Source: Microscillaceae bacterium
Lineage (GTDB): Bacteria; Bacteroidota; Bacteroidia; Cytophagales; Microscillaceae
Assembly: GCA_011390205.1 (NCBI GenBank)
Contig: JAABSX010000044.1
Span: forward strand, 1 to 36,100
Reading direction: 5' to 3'
Length of the DNA: 36,100 bases
Below are positions 3,722-20,365 of this stretch, piece by piece; position 1 is the first letter of the stretch; every line of letters begins with the position of its first letter. The translations under genes and the position numbers were made by a program. The notes under the pieces are model-generated. The model had not been told where the DNA came from. It saw nothing but the letters and a program-made list of their open reading frames with translations, and made no database searches.

Positions 3722-5632
3722 ATGGCTTTAAAAATCAATAGTCTCGGAGGATATATCCACGAGTATCAAAAAAGTGTAAACACGCCCGAGAAGTTTTGGG
3801 CAGAAATCGCAGACAACTTTTACTGGCGTAAAAAATGGGACAAAGTCGTAGAGTGGAACTTTGAAGAACCCCGTGTAGAGTGGTTCAAGAATGCAAAGCT
3901 CAATATTACGGAGAATATCTTTGAGCGAAATTTATTCACCCATGCAGATAAACCTGCCATCATTTGGGAGCCCAATGACCCCAACGAAGCACACATCACA
4001 CTCACCTACAAAGAACTCTACGAAAAGGTCTGCCAATTTGCCAATGTACTCAAAGGCAAGGGCATCGAGAAAGGTGACAGAGTCATTATCTACATGCCTA
4101 TGGTGCCTGAGGCAGCCATTGCGATGCTTGCCTGTGCTAGAGTAGGGGCTGTGCATTCCATTGTTTTTGCGGGTTTTTCTTCTAGTGCATTGGCTGACCG
4201 CATAGAAGATTGCAAAGCTAAAATGGTCATTACCTCTGATGGTAATTTTAGGGGAACTAAAAAAATCCCTGTGAAGGCAGTCGTGGATGAAGCCCTAGAA
4301 GCAAAAAGCAGCATAGAAAACGTCATTGTATTGCAAAGAACCAAGCAAGATGTAACGATGACAGCAGGGCGAGATACTTGGTGGCACGAAGCCTGCGAGG
4401 GTGTTTCTACTGAAAACAAAGCCGAAGAGATGGACTCCGAAGATATGCTCTTTATCCTCTATACTTCTGGCTCTACAGGCAAGCCCAAAGGCGTAGTGCA
4501 TACCTGCGGCGGCTACATGGTCTATACTGCCTATACTTTTCAGAATGTTTTTCACTATAATCCTGGGGATATTTACTGGTGTACAGCAGATGTCGGCTGG
4601 ATTACAGGGCATTCATACATCGTCTATGGCCCCCTTGTTTCTGGTGCTACTTCTATGATGTTTGAGGGAGTGCCTACCTTCCCTGACGCAGGGCGGTTTT
4701 GGGAAGTAGTAGCCAAGCACAAGGTCAATCAATTTTATACTGCTCCTACAGCCATTCGTGCTTTGCAAGCTTACGGCCTAGACCCTGTTACCAAGCACGA
4801 CCTAAGCTCTCTCAAAGTGCTGGGCTCAGTAGGTGAGCCTATCAATGAAGAAGCTTGGCACTGGTACCATACACACATCGGCAAAGGCAAGTGCCCCATT
4901 GTGGATACTTGGTGGCAAACAGAAACGGGAGGCATCTTGATTTCTCCTTTGCCAGGCATCACCCCCACAAAGCCCTCTTATGCTACACTGCCTCTGCCAG
5001 GTGTGCAGCCTGTAATAGTAGATAGTGAAGGCAAAGAACTCAAAGGAAATAGCGTAGAAGGAAATCTTTGTATTAAGTTTCCTTGGCCGTCTATGATACG
5101 AACTACTTATGGCGACCACGAGCGCTGCCGCACTACCTACTTCTCTACTTACCCAGGAATGTACTTTACGGGAGATGGTGTAAAACGTGATGAAGATGGC
5201 TACTATCGTATTTTAGGGCGAGTAGATGATGTCATCAATGTATCTGGGCACCGAATGGGCACTGCCGAGGTAGAAAATGCCATCAATGAGCATCCGCTTG
5301 TCATAGAATCCGCAGTGGTAGGCTATCCACACGACATCAAAGGGCAAGGAATCTATGCCTATGTGATTGCTGATATGAGTGCAAGTGAAACCGATACAGA
5401 AGAAGAACTTGCCAAGGAAATTATCCTTACAGTGAGCAAAATCATAGGGCCTATCGCAAAGCCTGACAAAGTGCAGATAGTAAGCGGATTGCCTAAGACT
5501 CGCTCAGGCAAGATTATGAGGCGTATCTTACGCAAAGTAGCCGAAGGAGATATTTCTAATCTAGGAGATACAAGCACACTGCTTAATCCTGAAATAGTAG
5601 ATGAGCTTATAGCCAAAGCAGGGCTGGCATAA
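3722..5632 (+). CDS. acs: Acetyl-CoA synthetase (acetate--CoA ligase, AMP-forming)
   Basis: Activates acetate to acetyl-CoA through acetyl-AMP in the cytoplasm, feeding the TCA cycle and lipid synthesis. It has 636 residues, close to the usual 640-650. The N-terminal ACAS domain leads into the AMP-binding core with the P-loop-like motif YTSGSTGKPKG (about 247-257), VDTWWQTETGG (A5 region), YFTGDGVKRDEDGYY (A7) and GRVDDVINVSGHR (hinge). The C-terminal lid carries PKTRSGKIMRR, with Lys597 as the catalytic lysine normally controlled by reversible acetylation. MALKINSLGGYIHEYQ is a typical family start. The gene is monocistronic, with a hairpin terminator 18 bases after the stop. No acetyltransferase or deacetylase partner is adjacent. 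Confidence 0.97.
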   Translation: MALKINSLGGYIHEYQKSVNTPEKFWAEIADNFYWRKKWDKVVEWNFEEPRVEWFKNAKLNITENIFERNLFTHADKPAIIWEPNDPNEAHITLTYKELYEKVCQFANVLKGKGIEKGDRVIIYMPMVPEAAIAMLACARVGAVHSIVFAGFSSSALADRIEDCKAKMVITSDGNFRGTKKIPVKAVVDEALEAKSSIENVIVLQRTKQDVTMTAGRDTWWHEACEGVSTENKAEEMDSEDMLFILYTSGSTGKPKGVVHTCGGYMVYTAYTFQNVFHYNPGDIYWCTADVGWITGHSYIVYGPLVSGATSMMFEGVPTFPDAGRFWEVVAKHKVNQFYTAPTAIRALQAYGLDPVTKHDLSSLKVLGSVGEPINEEAWHWYHTHIGKGKCPIVDTWWQTETGGILISPLPGITPTKPSYATLPLPGVQPVIVDSEGKELKGNSVEGNLCIKFPWPSMIRTTYGDHERCRTTYFSTYPGMYFTGDGVKRDEDGYYRILGRVDDVINVSGHRMGTAEVENAINEHPLVIESAVVGYPHDIKGQGIYAYVIADMSASETDTEEELAKEIILTVSKIIGPIAKPDKVQIVSGLPKTRSGKIMRRILRKVAEGDISNLGDTSTLLNPEIVDELIAKAGLA

Positions 5633-6755: not shown

Positions 6756-6993
6756 AAAAATAAAATTAGAATTATAATTGTGCGAAAATCCACTTTTTTA
6801 TTCAGAATACCTTAGAAAGCCTTGAATATTATTTTTAATCAGCACCTGCCCTTAGGATGTATTTTTATTCAAAAGGCTACTAAACCGTATTTTACCCATG
6901 CCCAAAGCTTCATATAGAGAAGAAAACAGAGGCTACACGAAAAAAAATTAAAATAATCTCTACTCTCCAGCAGTTTTTGAGTATATTCATCAA

Positions 6994-7028
6994 AAGTGTT
7001 ATAAAGTGTTTAAAAACCCAGAAGTGTT
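6994..7028 (+). promoter_or_regulatory. Three AAGTGTT repeats just upstream of the sigma-like gene
   Basis: AAGTGTT occurs at 6994-7000, 7004-7010 and 7022-7028, that is, at spacings of 10 and 18 bases, ending six bases before the ATG at 7035. Spacings close to one and two helical turns suggest a binding site for a regulator, or a leader element. The function is inference. Confidence 0.35.
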
Positions 7029-7034
7029 TGAGAT

Positions 7035-8024
7035 ATGGGATTAAAATCAAACTCCTTGTTTGCCGATGCAGTGTATCTGCAATTATTAGAAGAAAAAAAA
7101 TATGAAGAAGTCTTTTTAAGTTGCAAAGATTATACCCGACAAAAGGTAAATCAACACCTCAAAGACTTCAAATATTACCATCAATTCAGTGATGACTTCT
7201 ACCATGAGGTCTGCATACATATCTACAGCAGAGCCTTGCCGAGTAGGGCATTTTTAGAAGCCCTCAAAAATGGAAACTCATTTAGGTTTTACCTTGCCAA
7301 AACCATCCGAAATACACTCAATACACTCCTGACAAGAGAAAAAAACAAAAGGGAGAATGTCTGTAATTTTGATGAGCTAATACCCACAAACCGAGGTGAG
7401 TATGACATAGAAGAAAAATCTATGACGTTTACGGACAAATCTTATCACCAACAAACAGACTCTCAAGACCTGCTAGAGCAGGTAAAGGATAAGTTTGATA
7501 GGTTTTTACTCAATTTCCAAAAAGTATTTCCTAAAATAGCTGGCAAACTGATTTTACTCTTAAAACTGCAAGCCCGCATACAGATTCAGGAAAGTGACCT
7601 AGATGTCTGCTTTGGTAAAATCTCCCAAAGAGACAAGCAGCATATCCTAGAATCACTTGGGCAAAGAACTGCTTATTTAGAAAAAGATGACAAGGAGATT
7701 TACAGCCTTATGCAGCCTTATTTTGTGAGCTACCGACAAGAAAAAGGGCAGCCATCAGCCCTACAGCGCTGGCTCAATCAGCATATCAATGGAGATAAAT
7801 ACACCAAGGGAATCTTAGATAAATTAGAAATTAAAGACACACAAAGTACTTTTAGGATTGCAGACAAAAAAATGTTTGCAGACTTCTTGTATGTGTTCTT
7901 TGATGAAAAAGCCAAAAAAGAACCAACAAATGCTGGCAAACAGGTGAGCAAAGAAACAGAAACTGTCTTTGTGCTAAAACCCCTGACAGCAAACGAGTGG
8001 ATGCCTTCTGTAAGTCATTCATAA
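7035..8024 (+). CDS. Probable divergent sigma factor (region 2-like N-terminus)
   Basis: A 329-residue cytoplasmic protein. Residues about 50-107 resemble sigma-70 region 2: FSDDFYHEVCIHIY corresponds to the core-binding helix, and SFRFYLAKTIRNTLNTLL followed by TREKNKRE to the -10-recognition helix with its basic end. After an acidic linker (DIEEKSMTFTDKSYHQQTDS) comes a helical C-terminal part in which I cannot find the region 4 helix-turn-helix. It may be too diverged, or replaced. The assignment leans on context: 40 bases downstream lies a membrane protein starting with a zinc-type anti-sigma motif, the normal partner arrangement for ECF sigma factors. Three AAGTGTT repeats precede the start. 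Alternatively it is a non-sigma regulatory protein; confidence in the sigma role is moderate. Confidence 0.6.
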   Translation: MGLKSNSLFADAVYLQLLEEKKYEEVFLSCKDYTRQKVNQHLKDFKYYHQFSDDFYHEVCIHIYSRALPSRAFLEALKNGNSFRFYLAKTIRNTLNTLLTREKNKRENVCNFDELIPTNRGEYDIEEKSMTFTDKSYHQQTDSQDLLEQVKDKFDRFLLNFQKVFPKIAGKLILLLKLQARIQIQESDLDVCFGKISQRDKQHILESLGQRTAYLEKDDKEIYSLMQPYFVSYRQEKGQPSALQRWLNQHINGDKYTKGILDKLEIKDTQSTFRIADKKMFADFLYVFFDEKAKKEPTNAGKQVSKETETVFVLKPLTANEWMPSVSHS

Positions 8025-8064
8025 AAAATAAAGAAACTAAAACTTAACTAAAAAAGGAAGACCT

Positions 8065-10983
8065 ATGAGCAAGGTTTTACCATTTCATAAAGAACCATCT
8101 CCCAAAAAAGAGAAACACACCGCACTGAGCAAGGCTTTTTTTGACCCAAAAGGGCATCTAAACCAATCAGGCATTTCTCTTTATGTAGAAGCCCGTATTT
8201 TGGACAGAGAGGATGAGCTGCCACAAAAAATAATACAGCACCTCGGCCAATGTGCCAAATGCCAACAAGAGGCATTGGATTTTTATGAGTTTATGAGAGA
8301 GGAAGATACTTCTTGTTTGACTCCACATCCTTTTTTGGATAGAAAAAATACCCTAACTGGCTTACAAAAGATATGGAGTTTGACTTCTTCTGCCAGCAGA
8401 GTAGCAGCCGTTATTTTGCTGACAGTAGCTTCTTGCCTGGGATATTTGCTAGTCAGTGAGCCTTACACAAGGGCAAACTCAGCACTGAACCCTCCCTTCA
8501 CAAACCCAGACATCAATGTTACTTATCAAGAATGGAGCATAGAAGCCTCCAAAAATCAATCTTTGCTCACCCCCAATGGCGCTTACATTCATATCCCGAG
8601 TTCTATTTTCGTAGATGAGCAAGGAGTCGATATTCAAGGGCAAATAACTATCAAATACCGTGAGCTGCGCCGTGCCTCAGAACTCATCGCAAGTGGTATC
8701 CCGCTTGGGCTAGAGGATGCAGGGCAGATGCAGGCACTTGAAAATGCAGGTACTTTTGAAATTAGAGGCTTTCAAAACGGAAAAACAATCTATATCAAAG
8801 ATGGCAAATCACTGAGTGTCAATATGTCTTCAGATTTTACTGAAGAAGGCTTTGCCCATTATTATTTGGATGAGCAGCCCACCCAAGTACTTACCCTTAG
8901 CAGCCCTTTGGCAAGCAATGCCCAAGCAGACAATGCCCCACAAGCAAAATGGATTTACCAGCAAAAATCCAAAAGTTTTTACAGCACCAACCTTGCCGAG
9001 CAAAACAAACAAAGGCTAGCCTCTCACAAAAAATTACTAGACTCCCTCAGCAAAGAAATACAACTGCTAGAAAACGAAGACAGACAAAATACGCATCACA
9101 GCAATCATCAGCGCCTTGTAGAAGATAACAAGCCGTTTTTCAAACTTAGCTTTGATGCCTTCGAAAACCCTAAAATGCTCGGGCAGCAAGACAAAATATG
9201 GGAGTATGTGGGCAAAAACAAAAGCATTAGCCCCACACAAGACAATCAATGGGTGCTCAACCAAAAATGGGAAAGTATGCAGCTTACCCCCCAAAAATAC
9301 AAAGACCTGAGCCTCAAAGGACACCTAGGCCCTGTCAATGATGCACAATTCTCCTACGATGGCACTAAAATTCTCACTGCCTCAGATGACCAAACCGCCA
9401 AAGTATGGTCTCACGAAGCACAGTATCTTTTTACACTCAAAGGGCACAAAGGGGCAGTCAATACAGCGGTCTTCTCTCCCAAAAATGATGCGTATATCTT
9501 GACATCTTCCGATGACCAAAGTGCAAAAATATGGTCTGAAAAAGGAAACATCATCACCACACTTCAGGGACACAATGCAAGGGTAAAGTCTGCAGTATTT
9601 TCTCCTGATGGAAACTATATCTTGACCTGTGCCGATGACAATACGGCAAGATTGTGGAACTACAGAGGGCAGTCTTTGCATAGTTTTTCACATTTGAGCA
9701 CTGCCGATGATGCCAAAATATCACCCAACAATCGTATGGTATTGTGCATCAGCTCTGATAGCACATTGCAGCTATGGAGCATTCAAGGAGAAAAACTTGC
9801 ACAGATACAGGGGCAGTTTAAAAGTGCCAAGTTTTCCAATGACGGGCGATACATCCTCACTACTTCTGCACACCCTTATCATGGGCAAGCCAAACTATGG
9901 ACTACCCGTGGAGAGCTTCTTAAGAGTTTTAATATTCATGATAAAAACATTGTCTTCTCTCCTGATGACAGACACCTAATGTCTGTGGCAGGAAACAAGG
10001 CAAGGCTGTGGTACCTGAACCCTAAAAAATCGTACAATACCGTCCTTATCCGAAATATGTATAACCAAGAAAATGACTACAGGCATGCACACACCAGACA
10101 GATTACCTACCTTGAGTATGCTAAGCAAAATGGAGAAGACCTTATCCTGACTGCGTCTGAAGATTATACAGCCAAGATATGGAGCAGCAACGGCGGGCTG
10201 CTTCATACGCTGCGTGAGCACACAGGCAAGATTAATAAAATAAGTATCTCTGCCAGCAATGACCAGATTTTGACTGCTTCTGATGATTTTACGGCAAAAC
10301 TCTGGGTGGAGCGTGAAATCCAAGATGTATTTGAAATGTATCTGTTCAAAGATTCAAGACTGCTGCAAAATGAAGATGGAAGCACTGTCAAAATTAAAGG
10401 AAAAAGATTCTACACCAGTGTCAAAGAAGCAGACATCAACAAGCTAGATGATACTTGGCAAAGCATAGAAACTCCACAACTCCACGACAATCCGCTAAAT
10501 GGAATACTTCAGCAATACGAAAAAACCCTTGCTGAGATTAAATTCTTAGAATCTCAGACGCCCCCCAAGCTACAGACACTGATGAGGGGCTTCAAGGTCA
10601 GTCAATTTGGGTATTATGCCTGCCAGCGTCTTTTTAGAGATACAAAAGCCATTGAATGCCAAAGCTCATTTAGTTTTGAGAAAAATATACACACAGACAA
10701 GGTCAAGCTGTATCACATCACAGGTGGGCAAGAAACGGTCATCATTCCGATAAGGCACGAAGCTGGCAAAGCTACAAAGCTGTATTTTAGTGCCAATCTA
10801 CCCAATAAGATTTTGGCAGTCTTGCCCAATGACCGTGTAGCTATGTTTGGAAAAGAGAAGTTTAGCCAGATTAATATACACAAACTCAAACATGAAAAGC
10901 AGCTTAATTTCAAACTACGTCCTTCTTTCCCTGTTAAAAACCTAGAAGAATTTGATACCTTTTTGAGTAGATTCGGAAGTTAA
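8065..10983 (+). CDS. Transmembrane zinc-type anti-sigma factor with WD40 beta-propeller
   Basis: A 972-residue protein. The cytoplasmic N-terminus has the HxxxCxxC motif of zinc-binding anti-sigma domains (His59, Cys63, Cys66 in QHLGQCAKCQQE). One transmembrane helix follows (about 111-131, AAVILLTVASCLGYLLV), so the rest should be periplasmic. Residues about 145-280 form a beta-rich domain (PSSIFVDEQG, ITIKYRELRRASELIASGIP, GTFEIRGFQNGK) seen in other Bacteroidota envelope proteins. Residues about 415-750 hold eight WD40 repeats with GH...D..A..W spacing, for example LKGHKGAVNTAVFSP and ILTASDDFTAKLW; repeats 4-6 are the most diverged. A C-terminal beta-rich domain (FGYYACQRLF, AVLPNDRVAMFGKEKF) ends the chain. 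It forms an operon with the sigma-like gene (40-base gap). Likely job: hold the sigma factor until the outer part senses a partner or stress. Confidence 0.8.
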   Translation: MSKVLPFHKEPSPKKEKHTALSKAFFDPKGHLNQSGISLYVEARILDREDELPQKIIQHLGQCAKCQQEALDFYEFMREEDTSCLTPHPFLDRKNTLTGLQKIWSLTSSASRVAAVILLTVASCLGYLLVSEPYTRANSALNPPFTNPDINVTYQEWSIEASKNQSLLTPNGAYIHIPSSIFVDEQGVDIQGQITIKYRELRRASELIASGIPLGLEDAGQMQALENAGTFEIRGFQNGKTIYIKDGKSLSVNMSSDFTEEGFAHYYLDEQPTQVLTLSSPLASNAQADNAPQAKWIYQQKSKSFYSTNLAEQNKQRLASHKKLLDSLSKEIQLLENEDRQNTHHSNHQRLVEDNKPFFKLSFDAFENPKMLGQQDKIWEYVGKNKSISPTQDNQWVLNQKWESMQLTPQKYKDLSLKGHLGPVNDAQFSYDGTKILTASDDQTAKVWSHEAQYLFTLKGHKGAVNTAVFSPKNDAYILTSSDDQSAKIWSEKGNIITTLQGHNARVKSAVFSPDGNYILTCADDNTARLWNYRGQSLHSFSHLSTADDAKISPNNRMVLCISSDSTLQLWSIQGEKLAQIQGQFKSAKFSNDGRYILTTSAHPYHGQAKLWTTRGELLKSFNIHDKNIVFSPDDRHLMSVAGNKARLWYLNPKKSYNTVLIRNMYNQENDYRHAHTRQITYLEYAKQNGEDLILTASEDYTAKIWSSNGGLLHTLREHTGKINKISISASNDQILTASDDFTAKLWVEREIQDVFEMYLFKDSRLLQNEDGSTVKIKGKRFYTSVKEADINKLDDTWQSIETPQLHDNPLNGILQQYEKTLAEIKFLESQTPPKLQTLMRGFKVSQFGYYACQRLFRDTKAIECQSSFSFEKNIHTDKVKLYHITGGQETVIIPIRHEAGKATKLYFSANLPNKILAVLPNDRVAMFGKEKFSQINIHKLKHEKQLNFKLRPSFPVKNLEEFDTFLSRFGS

Positions 10984-11508: not shown

Positions 11509-13593
11509 ATGAAGAAAGCACTTTATATACTTCCTCTTCCTATTTTGCTACTTATATTTTGGAGTTTTTCGGCAGGATATGCCCCCAAAAAGACCAGTGT
11601 AAGTATTGATTTTGAATACACCCTAGCAGATACCTCCCTGATTAAGCCCGAGGCAGTACACTTCAAAAAAGCGGTATTGCTTGCCAACCTGATTATGCAC
11701 AATCATTACAGCAAAAAAGTACTCTCTGATGAGATTTCTCAAAAAATGTTTGACAAATATCTCAAAGATTTAGACGCTACACACGTTTATTTTATGCATG
11801 AAGATATTGAAAAATTTATACCCTACAGAGCACAGTTAGATGATATGCTACAAGAGGGAAACCTTGACCTTGCCTATGCTATCTTTAATATCTACAAACA
11901 AAGGGTGCTAGACAGGATGAAAGAAAACATTGAATTTCTGAGCAGTGATAAGGAGTATGACTTCAGCAAAGATGAATTTTTGGACACTGACAGAGAAAAT
12001 GCTGGCTGGGCAAAAAATAAAGCTGAGCTAGACGATTTGTGGAGAAAACAAATTAAAAACAGTGTGCTAGGGCTGATACTCAGCGGCAAGACCCAAGCCG
12101 AAAGCAAAGAAATCATCAAAACTCGCTTTGAGACTTACCAAAGAAACATCTTGCAGATGAAAAGCGAAGATGTATTTGAAACCTACATGAATGCCCTCAC
12201 CGAAACTTATGACCCACATACGGCTTATTTTTCGCCCATTAATTCACAAAACTTTCAAATGAACATCAACAAGTCTTTTGAAGGAATAGGTGCTAGATTA
12301 CAAACCCAAAGCGATTACACAGTCATCACAGAGGTAATGCCCGGAGGCCCTGCATTCAGAGACAAAATACTCAAAGCAAACGACAAAATCATAGGCGTGG
12401 GGCAGGGAGACAATGGAGAAATCAGGGATGTAATCGGCTGGCGCATAGATGATGTAGTGGCACTTATCCGTGGTGAAAAAGGCTCAATAGTCCGTTTACA
12501 GATTATCCCTGCCAGTGCAGGGGCAAACGAGCCGCCCAAAGTGGTGAGGCTTGTCCGTGATAAAATAAATATAGAAGACCAGTCTGCTTCCAAAAAACTC
12601 TATGAGATAGAAGAAAAAGGCAAAAAACTCAAGGTAGGAGTCATCACGATTCCCTCTTTTTATATCAATTTTGAGGAATACCGACAGCGGAAACCTGATT
12701 ACAAGGGCACGACCAATGATGTCAAAAAACTTATCAAAGAACTCCAAGACGAAGGCATGGATGCCCTCGTCATAGACCTCAGATACAATGGTGGGGGTGC
12801 TTTGCAAGAAGCTATAGACCTCACTGGCTTATTCATCAAGACAGGGCCCGTGGTGCAAGTACGCAATACAAAAGGAGAAATAGAAGTAAATTCAGATGAA
12901 AACCCTGAACTGGCCTATGATGGGCCTCTGGCAGTGATGGTCAATTCTTTCAGTGCCTCAGCCTCCGAAATCTTTGCGGGTGCTATCCAAGATTATAAAA
13001 GAGGCCTCATCATAGGTGAGCAGACCTTCGGAAAAGGAACTGTGCAAAGCCAGATAGACCTCAATAAATATGTACGGGATACAGATGAAGACCTCGGGCA
13101 GCTAAATCTTACGCTTTCTAAGTTTTATAGAATTACGGGCAGTAGCACACAGCATCAAGGTGTAATCCCTGATATACAGCTTCCTTCTATTTATGGCAAA
13201 GACAAAGTAGGAGAGAGTGCACAGCCCAATGCCCTCCCTTGGGATGAAATCAAATCTGCAAAATTCTCCGAAGTAAATCAAGTGAACTCTAGCCTTGTGA
13301 GTAAACTCAAAAAATCTTATGAAAAACGTACAGTATCAGACCCCTCTCTCAAAAACCTTTTGGCTATGATAGAAGAAGCCCAAGAACTTCAAGAACGCTC
13401 AAAAATCTCTCTCAACCTAGAAAAAAGACGTGTAGAGAATGAAGAGTATGAAAGCAAAAGCAAAAAACGAGAAGAAATCTTGGCCCAAAATGCAGAGAGT
13501 GAAGGCAGCTACAAAGACATCAAAGATGCTTACTTGAAGAATGCCCTTCACATCATTGCTGAAATGAATGCGGAAAGTAAAAAGAAAAAATAA
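11509..13593 (+). CDS. prc: Tail-specific (carboxy-terminal processing) protease, S41A family
   Basis: A periplasmic serine protease that degrades or trims proteins from exposed C-termini. It has 694 residues, similar to E. coli Tsp/Prc. An N-terminal hydrophobic segment (ALYILPLPILLLIFWSFSAG) is a signal peptide or anchor. An N-terminal helical domain precedes a PDZ domain at about 250-345 (SFEGIGARLQTQSDYTVITE, AFRDKILKANDKIIGVGQ), then the S41 catalytic domain. NSFSASASEIFAGAIQDY and TFGKGTVQ give the catalytic Ser484 and Lys509 and Asp495, at the same 11- and 14-residue spacings as Ser430, Asp441 and Lys455 in Tsp. The C-terminus is a long charged helical region as in Tsp. Single gene with a bidirectional terminator shared with punA. 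Confidence 0.96.
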   Translation: MKKALYILPLPILLLIFWSFSAGYAPKKTSVSIDFEYTLADTSLIKPEAVHFKKAVLLANLIMHNHYSKKVLSDEISQKMFDKYLKDLDATHVYFMHEDIEKFIPYRAQLDDMLQEGNLDLAYAIFNIYKQRVLDRMKENIEFLSSDKEYDFSKDEFLDTDRENAGWAKNKAELDDLWRKQIKNSVLGLILSGKTQAESKEIIKTRFETYQRNILQMKSEDVFETYMNALTETYDPHTAYFSPINSQNFQMNINKSFEGIGARLQTQSDYTVITEVMPGGPAFRDKILKANDKIIGVGQGDNGEIRDVIGWRIDDVVALIRGEKGSIVRLQIIPASAGANEPPKVVRLVRDKINIEDQSASKKLYEIEEKGKKLKVGVITIPSFYINFEEYRQRKPDYKGTTNDVKKLIKELQDEGMDALVIDLRYNGGGALQEAIDLTGLFIKTGPVVQVRNTKGEIEVNSDENPELAYDGPLAVMVNSFSASASEIFAGAIQDYKRGLIIGEQTFGKGTVQSQIDLNKYVRDTDEDLGQLNLTLSKFYRITGSSTQHQGVIPDIQLPSIYGKDKVGESAQPNALPWDEIKSAKFSEVNQVNSSLVSKLKKSYEKRTVSDPSLKNLLAMIEEAQELQERSKISLNLEKRRVENEEYESKSKKREEILAQNAESEGSYKDIKDAYLKNALHIIAEMNAESKKKK

Positions 13594-15165: not shown

Positions 15166-18100
15166 ATGAGCCACCCAAACCTACAAAATAGTCTATCCAT
15201 GGAAAAGGAAAAGTTAGCCACACAAAATACTGAGGAAGTACAAAAAGCATCGCCTGATCAAGAGCATACAGATGACAAGCAGCCCAGCACTGTGCCTTAT
15301 GCCCAATACCAAGCCTTACAAAATCAACTCTTGGAAGAAAAAAAGAAAATGGAGGAGCAAATATGGCTTGACCAAACACTCCTCAACTATGAGGTAATGC
15401 TCCGAGAAAACACACAAAAAAATATACACGAACTCTCCGAAATTATCCTGAGCCACATCGCCAAAGTCATCAAGGCTGTCTATGGAGCGTTTTTTATCCT
15501 AGACCCTGAGCAGCAAACAGTAAATGCCATAGCTGGCTACGCTTGCACCTTAGAAACAATGCAAAGAACACAATTCAAAGTGGGGGAAGGACTCATAGGG
15601 CAGGTAGCAAAGACCAAAGAAATACTCTATTTAGAAAATATAGAAACACAGCTAGACTCTTCGCTAGGAAGAATCAGCAGCACTACACTCATCATCGCTC
15701 CCATCATATTAGAACAAAAAATACTCGGAATCATAGAGCTAAACACGCTCTCCAAAGCACATCAGAAGGTCATCTTACTACTCCAAAAGATGAGCTACCA
15801 GACAGCACTCTCCGTCCATAACTTGCAATATGCCCAAACCGCACACAATGGCGCAACAGAGCAAGCACTCAACCAACTACAAGAAAAACTAGAAGAAAAA
15901 GAAAACCAATTAAAGCACCTTAAACAACAACTTGAACAAAAACAAGAAGAAACAGCACAGGCTTCCACACTTGAAAAAGCAACACAAGAGGCGTTCTTAG
16001 AAATACAGCTCCAGCAGCTCCAAAATAAACTACAAGAAAAAGAAACCAAGCTCCAGTGGCTACAAGAAAACCAAGGCAACACCGCAGAAAATCACCTGCC
16101 TGAGCTAGAAGAACTTGCCCAACAACTCATACAAACTCAGACAGCACTTGCACACACTCAAGCAGAACTTGCACAAAAAGAAAATGACTGGCAAGAAGCA
16201 CAAGAGCAGCTCGCACAACTGAGAATACAAGAAATACAAGAAAAAAACCCCAAAACAGAAGAAATCCAACACTGGCACGAAGAAATGGAGGAGGCTGAAA
16301 AACAAATACAGGCACTCAACACTAAAAACGAAGCCCTAGAAATAGAACTTAACAAAAGAGCCAATGACTATGAAATGCTCAAAGAAACCATCAAATGGAA
16401 AGATGCTGAAATAGACAGGCAAGATGATGCCATCCTCGAAAAGAAAAAAATAACACAAAACCTAGAAAAAGAACTTGCACTTATACAAGCCGAAAACCTC
16501 AAGGGTGTAGAGGAAATTATCAAACAAGGGAAAATTATCAAAAGCAAAGAAGAAGAAATCACCTCCCTTAAGCAACAAATAGAACAAGCACCTGAGATAA
16601 ATATAGACGAACTCAATGAACTCAAACAAGCACTTACACAAAAAGAAAGTGAAATAGACGAACTCAAAATATACCTCCAAGAAAGCAAACAAGCCCTTGA
16701 AAAAGCAAGCAATACCCTCGAAGGGCTTGAGCAAGCTATTGAGCAAAAAAATCAAGAAATTAGCCAATTACAGCAGCAAGTACACCAAAACCAAGAACAG
16801 CTCACCCAACAAACACAGCAGCTCAATCAACACACTGCCTTGCTCCGCAAAAAAGAGGACGAACTCCTCGTGTCACAGTATCTGCTGAATCAAAAACAAG
16901 AGGACGAAACAGAAAATAACCCTATCACGGATGCACTCAAAGAAGAAATAAAAATACTTAAAGAGCAAATAAAACAAACCAAAGAACAAGCTGCACTCCA
17001 GCAGGAAAAGGCTCAGAAAAGCCAGCAAGAGCTGCAAACACAGCTAGAAGCACAAAATAATACCAACATCGATGCCCTATATGCAGAGATACAAGCACTC
17101 AACAATCAACTCAAACAGCAAGAAACAGCAAACAAAGAGGATGAAGTGAAAGAAATTCGGGCACAGCTCGAGCAAAAAGAAAATGAAATAAAAAGTATTA
17201 AAGATGAAAACTTGATGCAAAACGAGGCAATAGAAAGCCTCAAAGAAGGAGTATTTCAAAAAGAAAAACAAATAGAACAACTCCACGCAATACAAACGCA
17301 GCAAAACCCTTACCAAGACAAACAAGACAAACAAGACAAACAAGAGGAACTAGAAAATACCCTCGAGGAACTAAGACGAAAAGAACACGAACTCCTCCAG
17401 CAGACCGATGCCCTGAGCAACCTCAGAACACAACTCCTAGAAAAAGAAAAACAAATAGAACAACTCAAAAAAGAAAGGAAAAATCAAGGAGAAGTACCCG
17501 ACTTAGAGGAGGTGAATCAGAAAATTAGCCAACTCGAAGATATTCAAAATGAACTCACACAAAAAGAACACGAAATAGAAAAACAAAACCAAACTATCAA
17601 AAACCAAAAAAGTGAAATCTTAGAAAAACACCTACAACTAGAGATTTTAAAAGATGCCATTGGTATCAAAGAACAAGAAAACAAACAACAAAACGCACAA
17701 ATAAAGAGCCAACAAGAGCAGCTCCTTGCAAGACAAGAAGAACTCAGCCAAAAAGAAGAAGAACTTACTTCACTCTTCAATAAAATCAACAGTGCATTCG
17801 CCGCACTAGAATTTGACATGAATGGAAAAATCCTGAGCATCAATAATAAATTCTTAATGCTGCTCGGACGCAAAATACAAGAAATGGAAACCCAGCCCAT
17901 TGAAATGATTTTTCCTGAAGAATTTTATAAATCAATGGAATACATCCTACTCTGGGAAGGATTAAAAATGGGGGTAACTCAGACCACAGAGCAGTTTACC
18001 TGTATCGGAAGCAAAGGCAGAGAAATTAAAATGAGTGTTACTTTTATACCCATACTAGACAAACAAGGAAAACCCTACGAAGTAGTGCAGCTCGTCAATC

Positions 18101-18501
18101 AGGTCTATGCAGAACCCAAAGAAAATAACTCCACACAAAACAATACAAGCCAAGAAGGAAAACAAAAACTCGATGCTTTCAATAATTCTTTTATCCTTGC
18201 AGAGCTTAACCTAAAAGGAATCATTACTGCCACCAATCATAATTTCTCTATCAATCTAGGATATGATGACAATGAAGCCCTAGGAAAACACCACAGAGAA
18301 TTTATAGACATTACTGACCGTAACTCTCCACAATATGAAAACATCATACAGCAGCTCAACACAGAAAAATACAGCACAGGAGTATTCAAATACTTGGGAA
18401 AAGAAGGGGAAATAGTAAGGCTCAGAAGTCACTTTCACCCTATCTTAGACCAAGAACAAAACCCAAGCAAAATTCTTGTCATTTCTCAGTTGCTCAATTA
18501 A
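15166..18501 (+). CDS. GAF / long coiled-coil / tandem PAS signalling scaffold
   Basis: A cytoplasmic protein of 1111 residues. Residues about 78-230 form a GAF domain (VYGAFFILDPEQQTVNAIAG, FKVGEGLIGQVAKTKEILYL, APIILEQKILGIIELN). Residues about 230-870 are an almost unbroken Gln/Glu/Lys coiled coil, roughly 640 residues and potentially many tens of nanometres long. Two PAS domains follow, about 874-985 (FDMNGKILSINNKFLMLLGR) and 1003-1110 (LNLKGIITATNHNFSINLGY). There is no kinase, phosphatase, cyclase or DNA-binding output and no membrane segment, so it must act through partners. Thirteen bases after its stop begins a GAF/PAS/PP2C protein with a closely similar GAF domain; the two surely form an operon. 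The coiled coil includes a 9-base tandem repeat (17317-17343). Family-level function is unknown. Confidence 0.88.
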   Translation: MSHPNLQNSLSMEKEKLATQNTEEVQKASPDQEHTDDKQPSTVPYAQYQALQNQLLEEKKKMEEQIWLDQTLLNYEVMLRENTQKNIHELSEIILSHIAKVIKAVYGAFFILDPEQQTVNAIAGYACTLETMQRTQFKVGEGLIGQVAKTKEILYLENIETQLDSSLGRISSTTLIIAPIILEQKILGIIELNTLSKAHQKVILLLQKMSYQTALSVHNLQYAQTAHNGATEQALNQLQEKLEEKENQLKHLKQQLEQKQEETAQASTLEKATQEAFLEIQLQQLQNKLQEKETKLQWLQENQGNTAENHLPELEELAQQLIQTQTALAHTQAELAQKENDWQEAQEQLAQLRIQEIQEKNPKTEEIQHWHEEMEEAEKQIQALNTKNEALEIELNKRANDYEMLKETIKWKDAEIDRQDDAILEKKKITQNLEKELALIQAENLKGVEEIIKQGKIIKSKEEEITSLKQQIEQAPEINIDELNELKQALTQKESEIDELKIYLQESKQALEKASNTLEGLEQAIEQKNQEISQLQQQVHQNQEQLTQQTQQLNQHTALLRKKEDELLVSQYLLNQKQEDETENNPITDALKEEIKILKEQIKQTKEQAALQQEKAQKSQQELQTQLEAQNNTNIDALYAEIQALNNQLKQQETANKEDEVKEIRAQLEQKENEIKSIKDENLMQNEAIESLKEGVFQKEKQIEQLHAIQTQQNPYQDKQDKQDKQEELENTLEELRRKEHELLQQTDALSNLRTQLLEKEKQIEQLKKERKNQGEVPDLEEVNQKISQLEDIQNELTQKEHEIEKQNQTIKNQKSEILEKHLQLEILKDAIGIKEQENKQQNAQIKSQQEQLLARQEELSQKEEELTSLFNKINSAFAALEFDMNGKILSINNKFLMLLGRKIQEMETQPIEMIFPEEFYKSMEYILLWEGLKMGVTQTTEQFTCIGSKGREIKMSVTFIPILDKQGKPYEVVQLVNQVYAEPKENNSTQNNTSQEGKQKLDAFNNSFILAELNLKGIITATNHNFSINLGYDDNEALGKHHREFIDITDRNSPQYENIIQQLNTEKYSTGVFKYLGKEGEIVRLRSHFHPILDQEQNPSKILVISQLLN
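17317..17343 (+). repeat. Three tandem 9-base repeats inside the coiled-coil gene
   Basis: GACAAACAA repeated three times without error, encoding DKQDKQDKQ. The unit keeps frame, so copy-number change would lengthen or shorten the coiled coil by three residues per unit. Confidence 0.9.
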
Positions 18502-18514
18502 TAACACAGAACAA

Positions 18515-20365
18515 ATGAATCTATCTACAAGCACTGACAGCAGCCAAAATAACCAAACCATGACTACTCCCTCAGCCAATGGAAACCAAGAGGGTTATTT
18601 TCAGGCACAAGCCCTCCACAAACTAAGAAAAATATTGGAGTGGAAACAAGAAAATACTGATCTAAAAAAATGGACGGAAAACATCCTTAGTGAGTTAGTG
18701 CCTTTTTTGGGTGGACTACAAGGCACATTCTTTGCCTACCAAGATGTCAACCATTTACTTGTCTTCAAAGGTGGTTTTGCCCTTGACTTCACAGAAGATG
18801 TCAAAAAAGAATACAGAATAGGAGAAGGTTTTATAGGGCAAGTAGCCAAAAATAGAGAAATACTTTTACTTGATAATAACGAAGCTTTTACAGCCCTCAC
18901 CTCCTCCAAAAAAATTCGCCTCAAGACAATCATCATTGCACCACTTATTTATAAAGATTCACTACTTGGTATCATCGAAATTAATTTTCCCCAAAACCCT
19001 CCCAAATATGTCTGTGATTTTTTGAAAATAGCCATCGAAGGGTTGAGTGCCAATCTATACGCCTCTCCTCCCCAACAATACACCGCACAAAACCAACATA
19101 CAGAAGCCCAAATTCATCAAGAAAATATAGAAATACTCCATACAGAAATACCTCAAGAGGACTCCCCAGAAAAACCAAACGAATGGAGAAGCCTCGCTAT
19201 GATGGTCTCTGAAAGTATCGTATTCGTAAACCCGCAATGGGACATCCTAGACCATAACCCCGCATTCGAGGCACTCTTTGGGGATAGCAATCACAAAGGA
19301 AATAACCTAAAAGCCTACCTCAACATTATGTCTTATGATGTCAGTAGTATCAAAGAAAAACTACAGAATGGGGCTGCCTGCGAAAGCATAGGCATACACA
19401 AAACAGGGGAAACATTCAGAATAAGCCTCCAAAGTTACCAAAGTAAAGGAGATGAAAGGGGAATCATCCTAAAGCCCCTCGAGAGCCAAACAGAGCTATT
19501 AAATAATCCTAGTGCGAATGAAAGCAGCCAACAAGCCCAAGCACTGGAAGAGGTAAATTCAGCACTTCACAAAATCAAAAAAGAACTTCAAAAGAAGGAC
19601 AAACAACTTAAAATACAAGCAGAAACTGCCCAAACCATACAAGACTTGCTTCTAGTGCCTATACAAAGCCTACAAGAAGTGTATCAAAATCTGTTCGTGT
19701 TTTATAAATCAGTAGAGCAAACAGGGGGAGACCTCTACTGGATAAGAAAAGAAAACCAAAAAACCATCATGGCAAGTATAGACTGTACAGGCAAAGGCAC
19801 AGCAGGGGCAATGATGTGTATGATGGTCAATAACCTGATGACACAGATTGTCAGTGTACAACAAATGACCTCACCCGAAAAAATACTCTCACAGCTCCAC
19901 CAATACATCCTGTATGCCAGCAAAACCAACAGTGCACTGTCTTACAAAGGAATCAAAGCAAGCATCGTTGTCTTAGATGAGCAAAAACACACAATGGAGT
20001 TTGCAGGTGCAAAGCAATCTTTGATTTACTTCCAAAACAAAGAATTACACGAAATACCAGGAGACACCATGTCGGTAGGGGGCTTTTCTAGTAACTATGA
20101 AGGAAAAAGAACTTTCCAAAAACACAGCATACAGCTCAACAGTGGACTAAAAACTACGGCATACCTCCCCACAGATGGCTATGAAAGCCAGTTTGGGGGA
20201 GATAGAGGAAGAAAATTTTTGAAAAATAACCTCCGAAAAGTCTTACAAGAAATCCATACACAGCCCATAGACAAGCAAGCCGGGATACTAGACGAAATCA
20301 TCCAAGAGTGGAAAAAAGATGAAAATCAGACAGATGATATGCTCATCATTGGGCTTCAAGTATGA
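18515..20365 (+). CDS. GAF/PAS protein with SpoIIE-type PP2C phosphatase output
   Basis: A predicted cytoplasmic serine/threonine phosphatase. Start at ATG 18515 gives 616 residues; an upstream TTG at 18476 in the same frame would overlap the previous gene and is not needed. Residues about 30-185 are a GAF domain (YRIGEGFIGQVAKNREILLL, APLIYKDSLLGIIEINF) closely resembling that of the upstream gene. Residues about 225-320 are PAS-like, followed by a short coiled coil (about 345-385). The C-terminal PP2C domain has the metal-site motifs GGDLYW (Asp406), DCTGKGTAGAM (Asp423), AGAKQSLI, PTDGYESQFGG (Asp554) and QTDDMLIIGL (Asp608), so it should be active. Close relatives dephosphorylate anti-sigma antagonists or other Ser/Thr phosphoproteins; here the target is unknown. 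It is co-transcribed with the upstream scaffold. Confidence 0.92.
   Translation: MNLSTSTDSSQNNQTMTTPSANGNQEGYFQAQALHKLRKILEWKQENTDLKKWTENILSELVPFLGGLQGTFFAYQDVNHLLVFKGGFALDFTEDVKKEYRIGEGFIGQVAKNREILLLDNNEAFTALTSSKKIRLKTIIIAPLIYKDSLLGIIEINFPQNPPKYVCDFLKIAIEGLSANLYASPPQQYTAQNQHTEAQIHQENIEILHTEIPQEDSPEKPNEWRSLAMMVSESIVFVNPQWDILDHNPAFEALFGDSNHKGNNLKAYLNIMSYDVSSIKEKLQNGAACESIGIHKTGETFRISLQSYQSKGDERGIILKPLESQTELLNNPSANESSQQAQALEEVNSALHKIKKELQKKDKQLKIQAETAQTIQDLLLVPIQSLQEVYQNLFVFYKSVEQTGGDLYWIRKENQKTIMASIDCTGKGTAGAMMCMMVNNLMTQIVSVQQMTSPEKILSQLHQYILYASKTNSALSYKGIKASIVVLDEQKHTMEFAGAKQSLIYFQNKELHEIPGDTMSVGGFSSNYEGKRTFQKHSIQLNSGLKTTAYLPTDGYESQFGGDRGRKFLKNNLRKVLQEIHTQPIDKQAGILDEIIQEWKKDENQTDDMLIIGLQV

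Follow-up and report, generated by a model that had tools for sequence, protein, structure and literature searches.

The window analyzed here is a stretch of 36,100 nucleotides from a bacterium of the family Microscillaceae (assembly GCA_011390205.1, contig JAABSX010000044.1, positions 1 to 36,100 of the forward strand). Two open reading frames on the same strand of this window, 7035-8024 (329 amino acids) and 8065-10983 (972 amino acids), are separated by 40 bases. They are predicted to encode a sigma factor resembling the extracytoplasmic function (ECF) group and a membrane anti-sigma factor whose outer part carries a WD40 propeller. An earlier note, made from the sequence alone, had reported these coordinates, lengths and spacing, together with His59, Cys63 and Cys66 of the second protein, its single membrane helix and its eight repeats, and all of these were correct. 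The features of the locus are given below, each with the evidence for its assignment.

7001-7009, + strand: conserved upstream element ATAAAGTGT, candidate autoregulatory promoter element (the only exact match to ATAARGTGT in the window)
7035-8024, + strand: ECF-like sigma factor, 329 amino acids (TIGR02937, AlphaFold2 model, fold match with the structural aligner VIA)
8065-10983, + strand: predicted membrane anti-sigma factor of 972 amino acids with an extracytoplasmic WD40 propeller (Pfam, ligands, helix, blades, VIA)
8125-8388, + strand: class I zinc anti-sigma-like domain, residues ~21-108, ligands H31, H59, C63 and C66 (invariant ligands, weak profile and fold matches)
8401-8457, + strand: single transmembrane helix, residues 113-131, positive side N-terminal (hydropathy 2.33)
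8506-8880, + strand: juxtamembrane beta domain, tentatively ZU5-like in fold (profile E 2.3e-41 over 8506-9288; VIA)
9301-10323, + strand: eight-bladed WD40 propeller, residues ~413-753 (Pfam WD40, eight blade strands)
10573-10965, + strand: C-terminal beta domain, which accompanies the ZU5-like domain in lipoprotein-like relatives (profile E 6.2e-13)

Relatives of the sigma factor were found in 7 of the 291 genomes searched in the order, all of them in the window's own family Microscillaceae (7 of 15). Five of the six other sigma-bearing genomes are recorded under the names Microscillaceae, Microscilla, or unclassified Cytophagales and Bacteroidetes. The seven genomes hold nine copies of the WD40 anti-sigma protein, and for eight of the nine the sigma gene is adjacent and in the same order. 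The gap between the two genes, in the seven pairs with clear starts, is 40, 258, 28, 28, 129, 98 and 9 bases, and the genes around the pair mostly differ between genera. The neighbourhood survey that the earlier note had proposed recovers a conserved two-gene module. Because the pair is kept in seven genomes of several genera, we rejected the possibility that two open reading frames are paired here by chance. One anti-sigma orthologue (L072, 9010-9050, genome G153) lacks a clear in-frame start; the ATG upstream is out of frame, beyond a run of A, and an assembly error may be the cause.

Six more distant relatives of the sigma factor occur, all in two genomes (G031 and G088). Directly downstream of four of them (L018, L019, L022 and L023) the same anti-sigma N-terminal domain is encoded with a different, shorter outer part, and loci L067-L069 likewise join this domain to a different outer part. 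Because four of the six distant sigma factors are paired with the domain under another outer part, it is the N-terminal domain, rather than the outer part, that tends to track the sigma factor. The remaining two, L020 (1165-1938) and its counterpart L021, are further sigma factors of the same family, and by eye a histidine-kinase-like gene lies upstream in L020. Searches of the named genomes gave no match with the full anti-sigma protein as query and six loci with the sigma alignment. A profile search of 395 genomes of the class found only the window genome, in a sample that says little about the family because no other Microscillaceae member is listed in it.

In the first protein, region 2 covers residues ~11-107 and a second helical part covers residues 136-295, which is probably a divergent region 4 plus an extension. 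The sigma70-ECF profile TIGR02937 matches the protein with E 3.3e-4 and 20.3 bits, below the curated cut-off of 42.9 bits, and for this reason we call it ECF-like. Across the family, the same profile matches 10 of the 11 members at E up to 0.1 (best 1.4e-6). Pfam returned no credible family for the window protein (best E 0.056, to unrelated eukaryotic families), and Sigma70_r2 matched one of the 11 family members scanned, with E 0.09. The family profile found nothing among PDB sequences at E up to 1.

The AlphaFold2 model of the first protein has a predicted local distance difference test score (pLDDT) of 73.5. VIA was run on the candidates supplied by Foldseek and placed sigma-S first (Z 10.6, 94 residues at 2.7 A, model residues 1-103); E. 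coli sigma-E was matched at Z 9.0. Almost every one of rows 1-44 is a sigma factor or a chain from a transcription complex (Z 10.6-5.4, mostly over region 2), and the first clearly unrelated row has Z 5.1. Some rows span residues 1-270, but at a root-mean-square deviation of 16-18 A. Because the sigma matches lead at Z 10.6 and unrelated chains first appear at 5.1, a sigma region 2 fold is well supported by the model, and the fold that the earlier note had assumed for this protein is thus recovered. The strong divergence of the protein, its lack of a credible Pfam family and a region 4 that is not clearly recognised would also suit a degenerate region 2 protein that is no functional sigma factor, the pair then acting by some other protein-protein route. 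We regard this as improbable, given that the region 2 match stands well above the unrelated VIA rows, that nearly the whole family is matched by TIGR02937, and that the partner is conserved and anti-sigma-like.

The evidence on the N-terminal domain of the second protein comes from its metal ligands as well as from profiles and folds. H31, H59, C63, C66 and Q67 are invariant in all eight aligned WD40 copies and in all seven members of a second set, which includes the ninth copy, truncated at a contig end; overall, the zinc ligands H31, H59, C63 and C66 are kept in nine of nine copies. In class I zinc anti-sigma factors an upstream His is a ligand. The structure model predicts helices at residues 34-45, 54-62 and 64-78, followed by the membrane helix (109-130 in the model), and H59, C63 and C66 lie in or between the helices 54-62 and 64-78. 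Such an Hx3Cx2C motif across helices 2 and 3 is the published signature of class I zinc anti-sigma domains, with which only 6% of the ECF sigma factors of Bacteroidetes are associated according to the available text of the same paper (PMC7406223).

The earlier note had proposed to compare this segment with zinc anti-sigma profiles. With E up to 1 as the limit, zf-HC2 matched 5 of 13 related segments, the best of them with E 0.003, and gave no match to the window protein itself. The RsrA profile matched 1 of the 13 segments with E 0.011, among unrelated matches. Of the eight matches to PDB entries by profile, RsiW was first (E 0.58) and 3hug_B, which we take to be RslA, was seventh (E 1.5); the remaining six were unrelated proteins with comparable E values. 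On the model of residues 1-412, VIA ranked ChrR at the top of 995 chains aligned (Z 5.3, 67 residues, 4.6 A), a Z score within the range that the aligner calls common. The fold ahead of the membrane helix appears anti-sigma-like, as the earlier note had proposed, in a model of low confidence. Each of these lines is weak alone, and all point the same way. We also observed stand-alone copies of the N-terminal domain of ~83 amino acids (L070 3481-3732, L071 2810-3064 and similar ones in two Microscilla genomes), which lack the membrane helix and the Cys ligands; one lies near a transposase-like gene by eye.

The outer part begins with the juxtamembrane beta domain, for which VIA returned ankyrin ZU5 (Z 4.9), GAIN (4.6) and ZO1 ZU5 (4.5). 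ZU5 was not among the Pfam matches listed for this domain, and the autocatalytic ZU5 cleavage motif, H-F/L-S/T, was not seen by eye in residues 150-270. Pfam WD40 (PF00400) matches with E 4.7e-46 and 153.7 bits, against a gathering threshold of 27, and four stretches are significant alone. Eight blade strands end in xxW, at residues 446, 488, 529, 569, 610, 647, 704 and 745, with a spacing of 37-42 residues except for one of 57. This number of blades is one able to form a ring. The eight blade positions were also found in five other full-length orthologues and in both second copies, partly by eye because some of their blades fall outside the strict pattern (for instance, F or Y in place of W).

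A profile of relatives that lack WD40 matches on both sides of the WD40 block, at 8506-9288 and at 10573-10965 (E values above). Because of these flanking matches, and with both domains present in the WD40-less relatives, the claim of the earlier note that the block is inserted between two co-occurring beta domains holds. Inside the family, these relatives (L062-L065) are lipoprotein-like proteins of ~500 amino acids with the two beta domains. The beta-beta profile was also run on 345 sampled genomes of the phylum and matched five of them, that of the window included, with E no higher than 1e-10. Of the remaining four, two carry L110 and L113, lipoprotein-like proteins from outside the family in which both beta domains were recognised by eye. 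Both Microscilla genomes encode, in addition, a 743-amino-acid protein with the order beta-WD40-beta, seven blades and no anti-sigma part (L060 5650-7878 and L061 6690-8921). L060, L061 and L062-L065 begin with a hydrophobic stretch ending in Cys. Our hydropathy threshold flags the starts of L060, L061 and L065 and not those of L062, L063, L064 and L066, which were taken by eye to be exported because their hydrophobic start ends in Cys. L065 also matches the Pfam lipoprotein attachment site, with E 0.0023, just short of the cut-off.

The exported-looking relatives in which the two beta domains occur without WD40 are also what one would expect if the pair were a sigma/anti-sigma switch in which the outer WD40 part is only a structural scaffold or cell-wall anchor. 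The signal would then be read elsewhere, for instance by the beta domains or by the cytoplasmic zinc and redox state. This reading is unlikely, though not negligible; the persistence of eight blade positions in the window protein, in the full-length orthologues and in the second copies suggests that the propeller matters. A FecR-type anti-sigma factor was not seen: no FecR domain was among the Pfam matches at E up to 1 when residues 1-132, 136-412 and 753-972 were scanned alone, nor among the matches listed for the full-length protein (the best 25 of 34 families).

The orientation in the membrane was assessed from the charges around the helix. K and R number four in the 20 residues before the helix of the window protein and one in the 20 after it, and they are commoner before than after the helix in nine of nine WD40 copies. 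Together with the exported-looking starts of the relatives, this bias supports a predicted topology with the N-terminus inside and the C-terminus outside. On these two grounds we rejected a cytoplasmic propeller, in keeping with the placement in the earlier note. WD40 domains are mostly cytoplasmic, and an inverted protein can be imagined, with its N-terminus outside and a cytoplasmic propeller that regulates the sigma factor as an ordinary WD40 scaffold. A role of this kind has been suggested for ECF57, which carries WD40-like repeats on the sigma factor itself in the available account (PMC8999054). Besides the positive-inside signal, the zinc Hx3Cx2C domain on the N side, encoded beside the sigma gene, and the same beta-WD40-beta block behind an export-signal-like start in L060 and L061 make the inverted topology very improbable.

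The upstream element, initially noticed by eye, was afterwards tested with no preselection on seven sigma upstream regions of 220 bases, those of the more distant sigma genes not among them. G088, which also carries the element, is nearly identical to G031 in this region and was not included, and the count excluded patterns in which fewer than two positions are a fixed G or C. ATAARGTGT is the most widely shared nine-base pattern with one two-fold position, and is present in six of the seven regions. In 200 shuffled sets the best shared pattern reached four of seven, and did so once. The single match in the window is to be read beside shuffled versions of the window, 40 of 100 of which hold at least one. 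Each of six long orthologous loci (L052-L057) contains the pattern once, upstream of the sigma gene. Part of this sharing may come from common descent. Because ATAARGTGT lies upstream of six of the seven sigma genes, it suggests autoregulation, a reading made from sequence. A Shine-Dalgarno role is unlikely because the distance to the start codon varies from 4 to ~190 bases. Three copies of AGTGTT also lie within ~45 bases upstream of the sigma start codon of the window (6990-7034).

Taken together, we consider it likely that the pair is a two-gene envelope-signalling module made of a sigma factor, an inner-membrane zinc anti-sigma factor and an outer WD40 docking propeller. On homology, domain order and conserved pairing, the cytoplasmic zinc domain would bind the sigma factor and keep it off RNA polymerase. 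One helix would cross the membrane and be followed outside by the ZU5-like beta domain, a long helix, the eight-bladed WD40 propeller and the second beta domain. The probable role of the propeller is to dock a protein or peptide that is secreted or belongs to the envelope, and binding or loss of this partner may alter or expose the juxtamembrane region. The sigma factor would then be released by conformational change or by regulated proteolysis, and once free it probably activates its own operon through ATAARGTGT. The pair would in this way probably convert an event in the cell envelope into changed gene activity. The envelope-sensing switch of the earlier note is partly supported, in its sigma-2 fold, anti-sigma-like fold, topology, pairing and WD40 insertion, and is less novel than proposed because Tt-TolB, discussed below, precedes it. 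None of the three refutations that the earlier note had named came about, although the model behind the anti-sigma part has low confidence.

A number of results count against a signalling module of this kind. No ligand, protease or regulon was identified for the pair. No Pfam domain scored above the cut-off in the sigma factor or in the N-terminus of the anti-sigma factor, and the TIGR02937 score of the window sigma factor is below its curated cut-off. It is the relatives and the predicted folds that carry the sigma and anti-sigma assignments. Foldseek gave no significant match for the sigma model (best E 0.49, to AlgU) or for the anti-sigma model (best E 0.09, to a single-stranded DNA-binding protein). 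The model of residues 1-412 has a low mean pLDDT of 58.9, the ChrR score is one that the aligner calls common, and most PDB profile matches are to unrelated proteins. H31 and both Cys are missing together, with the helix-2 His kept, from 4 of 13 related domains, all of them in two closely related genomes; a joint loss is as expected if these residues form one metal site.

The distribution adds further points of this sort. One WD40 copy (L059, contig 8 of G088, 7606-10536) is an orphan with no sigma gene beside it; its close relative L058 has a sigma gene at that place, and the larger matching blocks around the two are 80-95% identical. No anti-sigma domain was found within ~1.4 kb downstream of the distant sigma gene L020 or within ~0.3 kb downstream of L021. 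The second-copy loci L058 and L059 contain two and four matches to ATAARGTGT, none of them upstream of the pair. The longer pattern TAATAARGTGT occurs 39 times across four genomes against 26 for the reversed control, which is no clear enrichment, and we do not name regulon targets because the difference is too weak.

In membrane anti-sigma factors, outer sensors of many kinds feed one simple inner switch. TolB is a beta-propeller family. In Thermoanaerobacter tengcongensis, according to the available text, Tt-TolB has been demonstrated to be a membrane anti-sigma factor and has an outer part annotated as TolB, its relation to Tt-RpoE1 having been shown by two-hybrid assay, electrophoretic mobility shift assay and in vitro transcription (PMC3397946). 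As in our pair, an ECF sigma gene is followed immediately by the anti-sigma gene, one membrane helix is predicted, and a short N-terminal part that binds the sigma factor (shown for Tt-TolB, predicted here) is joined to a large C-terminal part. Tt-TolB differs in its sigma-binding part of only 39 residues, in its TolB-type rather than WD40 outer part and in its phylum, and the main text of that paper, as available, does not use the words zinc, propeller or WD40 (PMC3397946). WD40 has also been linked to sigma factors in other ways: ECF57 and other sigma factors carry WD40-like extensions (PMC8999054, PMC11119718), and in Planctomycetes WD40 genes lie beside sigma-70 genes (PMC5587647), as far as the available texts go. 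In those cases the WD40 part is fused to the sigma factor or encoded nearby, whereas in our pair it sits outside the membrane on the predicted anti-sigma factor.

The FecI/FecR systems of Bacteroidota carry out cell-surface signalling through a membrane anti-sigma factor with an outer sensing part. Our pair resembles them in having a membrane anti-sigma factor with an outer part proposed to sense, and differs in that no FecR domain was matched. None of the window genes directly beside the pair was recognised as a TonB receptor, with the neighbours only partly classified. With ChrR, RsiW and RslA (PDB 2z2s, 5wuq and 3hug) the second protein shares the Hx3Cx2C motif across helices 2 and 3, the upstream His and the adjacent sigma gene, but the sequence similarity is close to undetectable and the outer parts differ. 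The main text of a review (PMC8103513) mentions neither WD40 nor propeller, and no WD40 membrane anti-sigma factor appears in the titles or abstracts among the matches listed from one open-access library. A true WD40 propeller on a membrane anti-sigma factor would be new; a membrane anti-sigma factor with a TolB-type outer part precedes it, and this is no new kind of system.

If a true WD40 propeller does act as the sensor, it would add a type of protein-docking receptor known mainly from the eukaryotic cytoplasm. Natural controls exist within the family: the sigma and anti-sigma core under other outer parts, the outer block on its own, and a single orphan copy. With them one can study which partner a periplasmic WD40 propeller would bind and how this would set the sigma factor free. 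GAIN and FIIND, structural cousins of the ZU5-like domain, are release switches in eukaryotic receptors. A tentative and rather doubtful extension is that a WD40 docking propeller of eukaryotic style was captured into an exported protein with two beta domains and then joined to a zinc anti-sigma domain, giving a periplasmic protein receptor in control of transcription. The seven-bladed, lipoprotein-like Microscilla twin without the anti-sigma part would compete for the same ligand or present it, and the ZU5-like domain would be the release switch.

The gene neighbourhood, compared over nine loci as a clue to the signal, showed few shared families and led nowhere. With the matching loci of G031 and G088 set aside, the families shared outside the pair are a NUDIX-like gene, acyl-CoA synthetases, one cluster of varied signalling genes and another that resembles TonB receptors. 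Pfam confirmed the TonB receptor of L055, which lies ~5 kb upstream of the sigma gene there; the other neighbours were named by eye. Directly downstream of the anti-sigma gene in the window and on the same strand lies a tail-specific protease (11509-13593; TSP_NTD, PDZ, Peptidase_S41 and DUF3340). Tail-specific-type proteases act on anti-sigma factors, and its sequence makes it a plausible candidate for the site-1 protease of this one. At the other loci compared the pair has no such neighbour, and we therefore did not build on it.

A gene resembling acetyl-CoA synthetases is found close to the pair in the window (3722-5632) and also close to the second copy in Microscilla (L058 2939-4855 and L059 4008-5924), through either ancestral linkage or chance. 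Farther along the window (15166-20365), two adjacent genes encode a coiled-coil protein of 1111 amino acids with GAF/PAS-like ends and a protein of 629 amino acids with a PP2C-like end, both recognised by eye, which are possibly a separate signalling pair.

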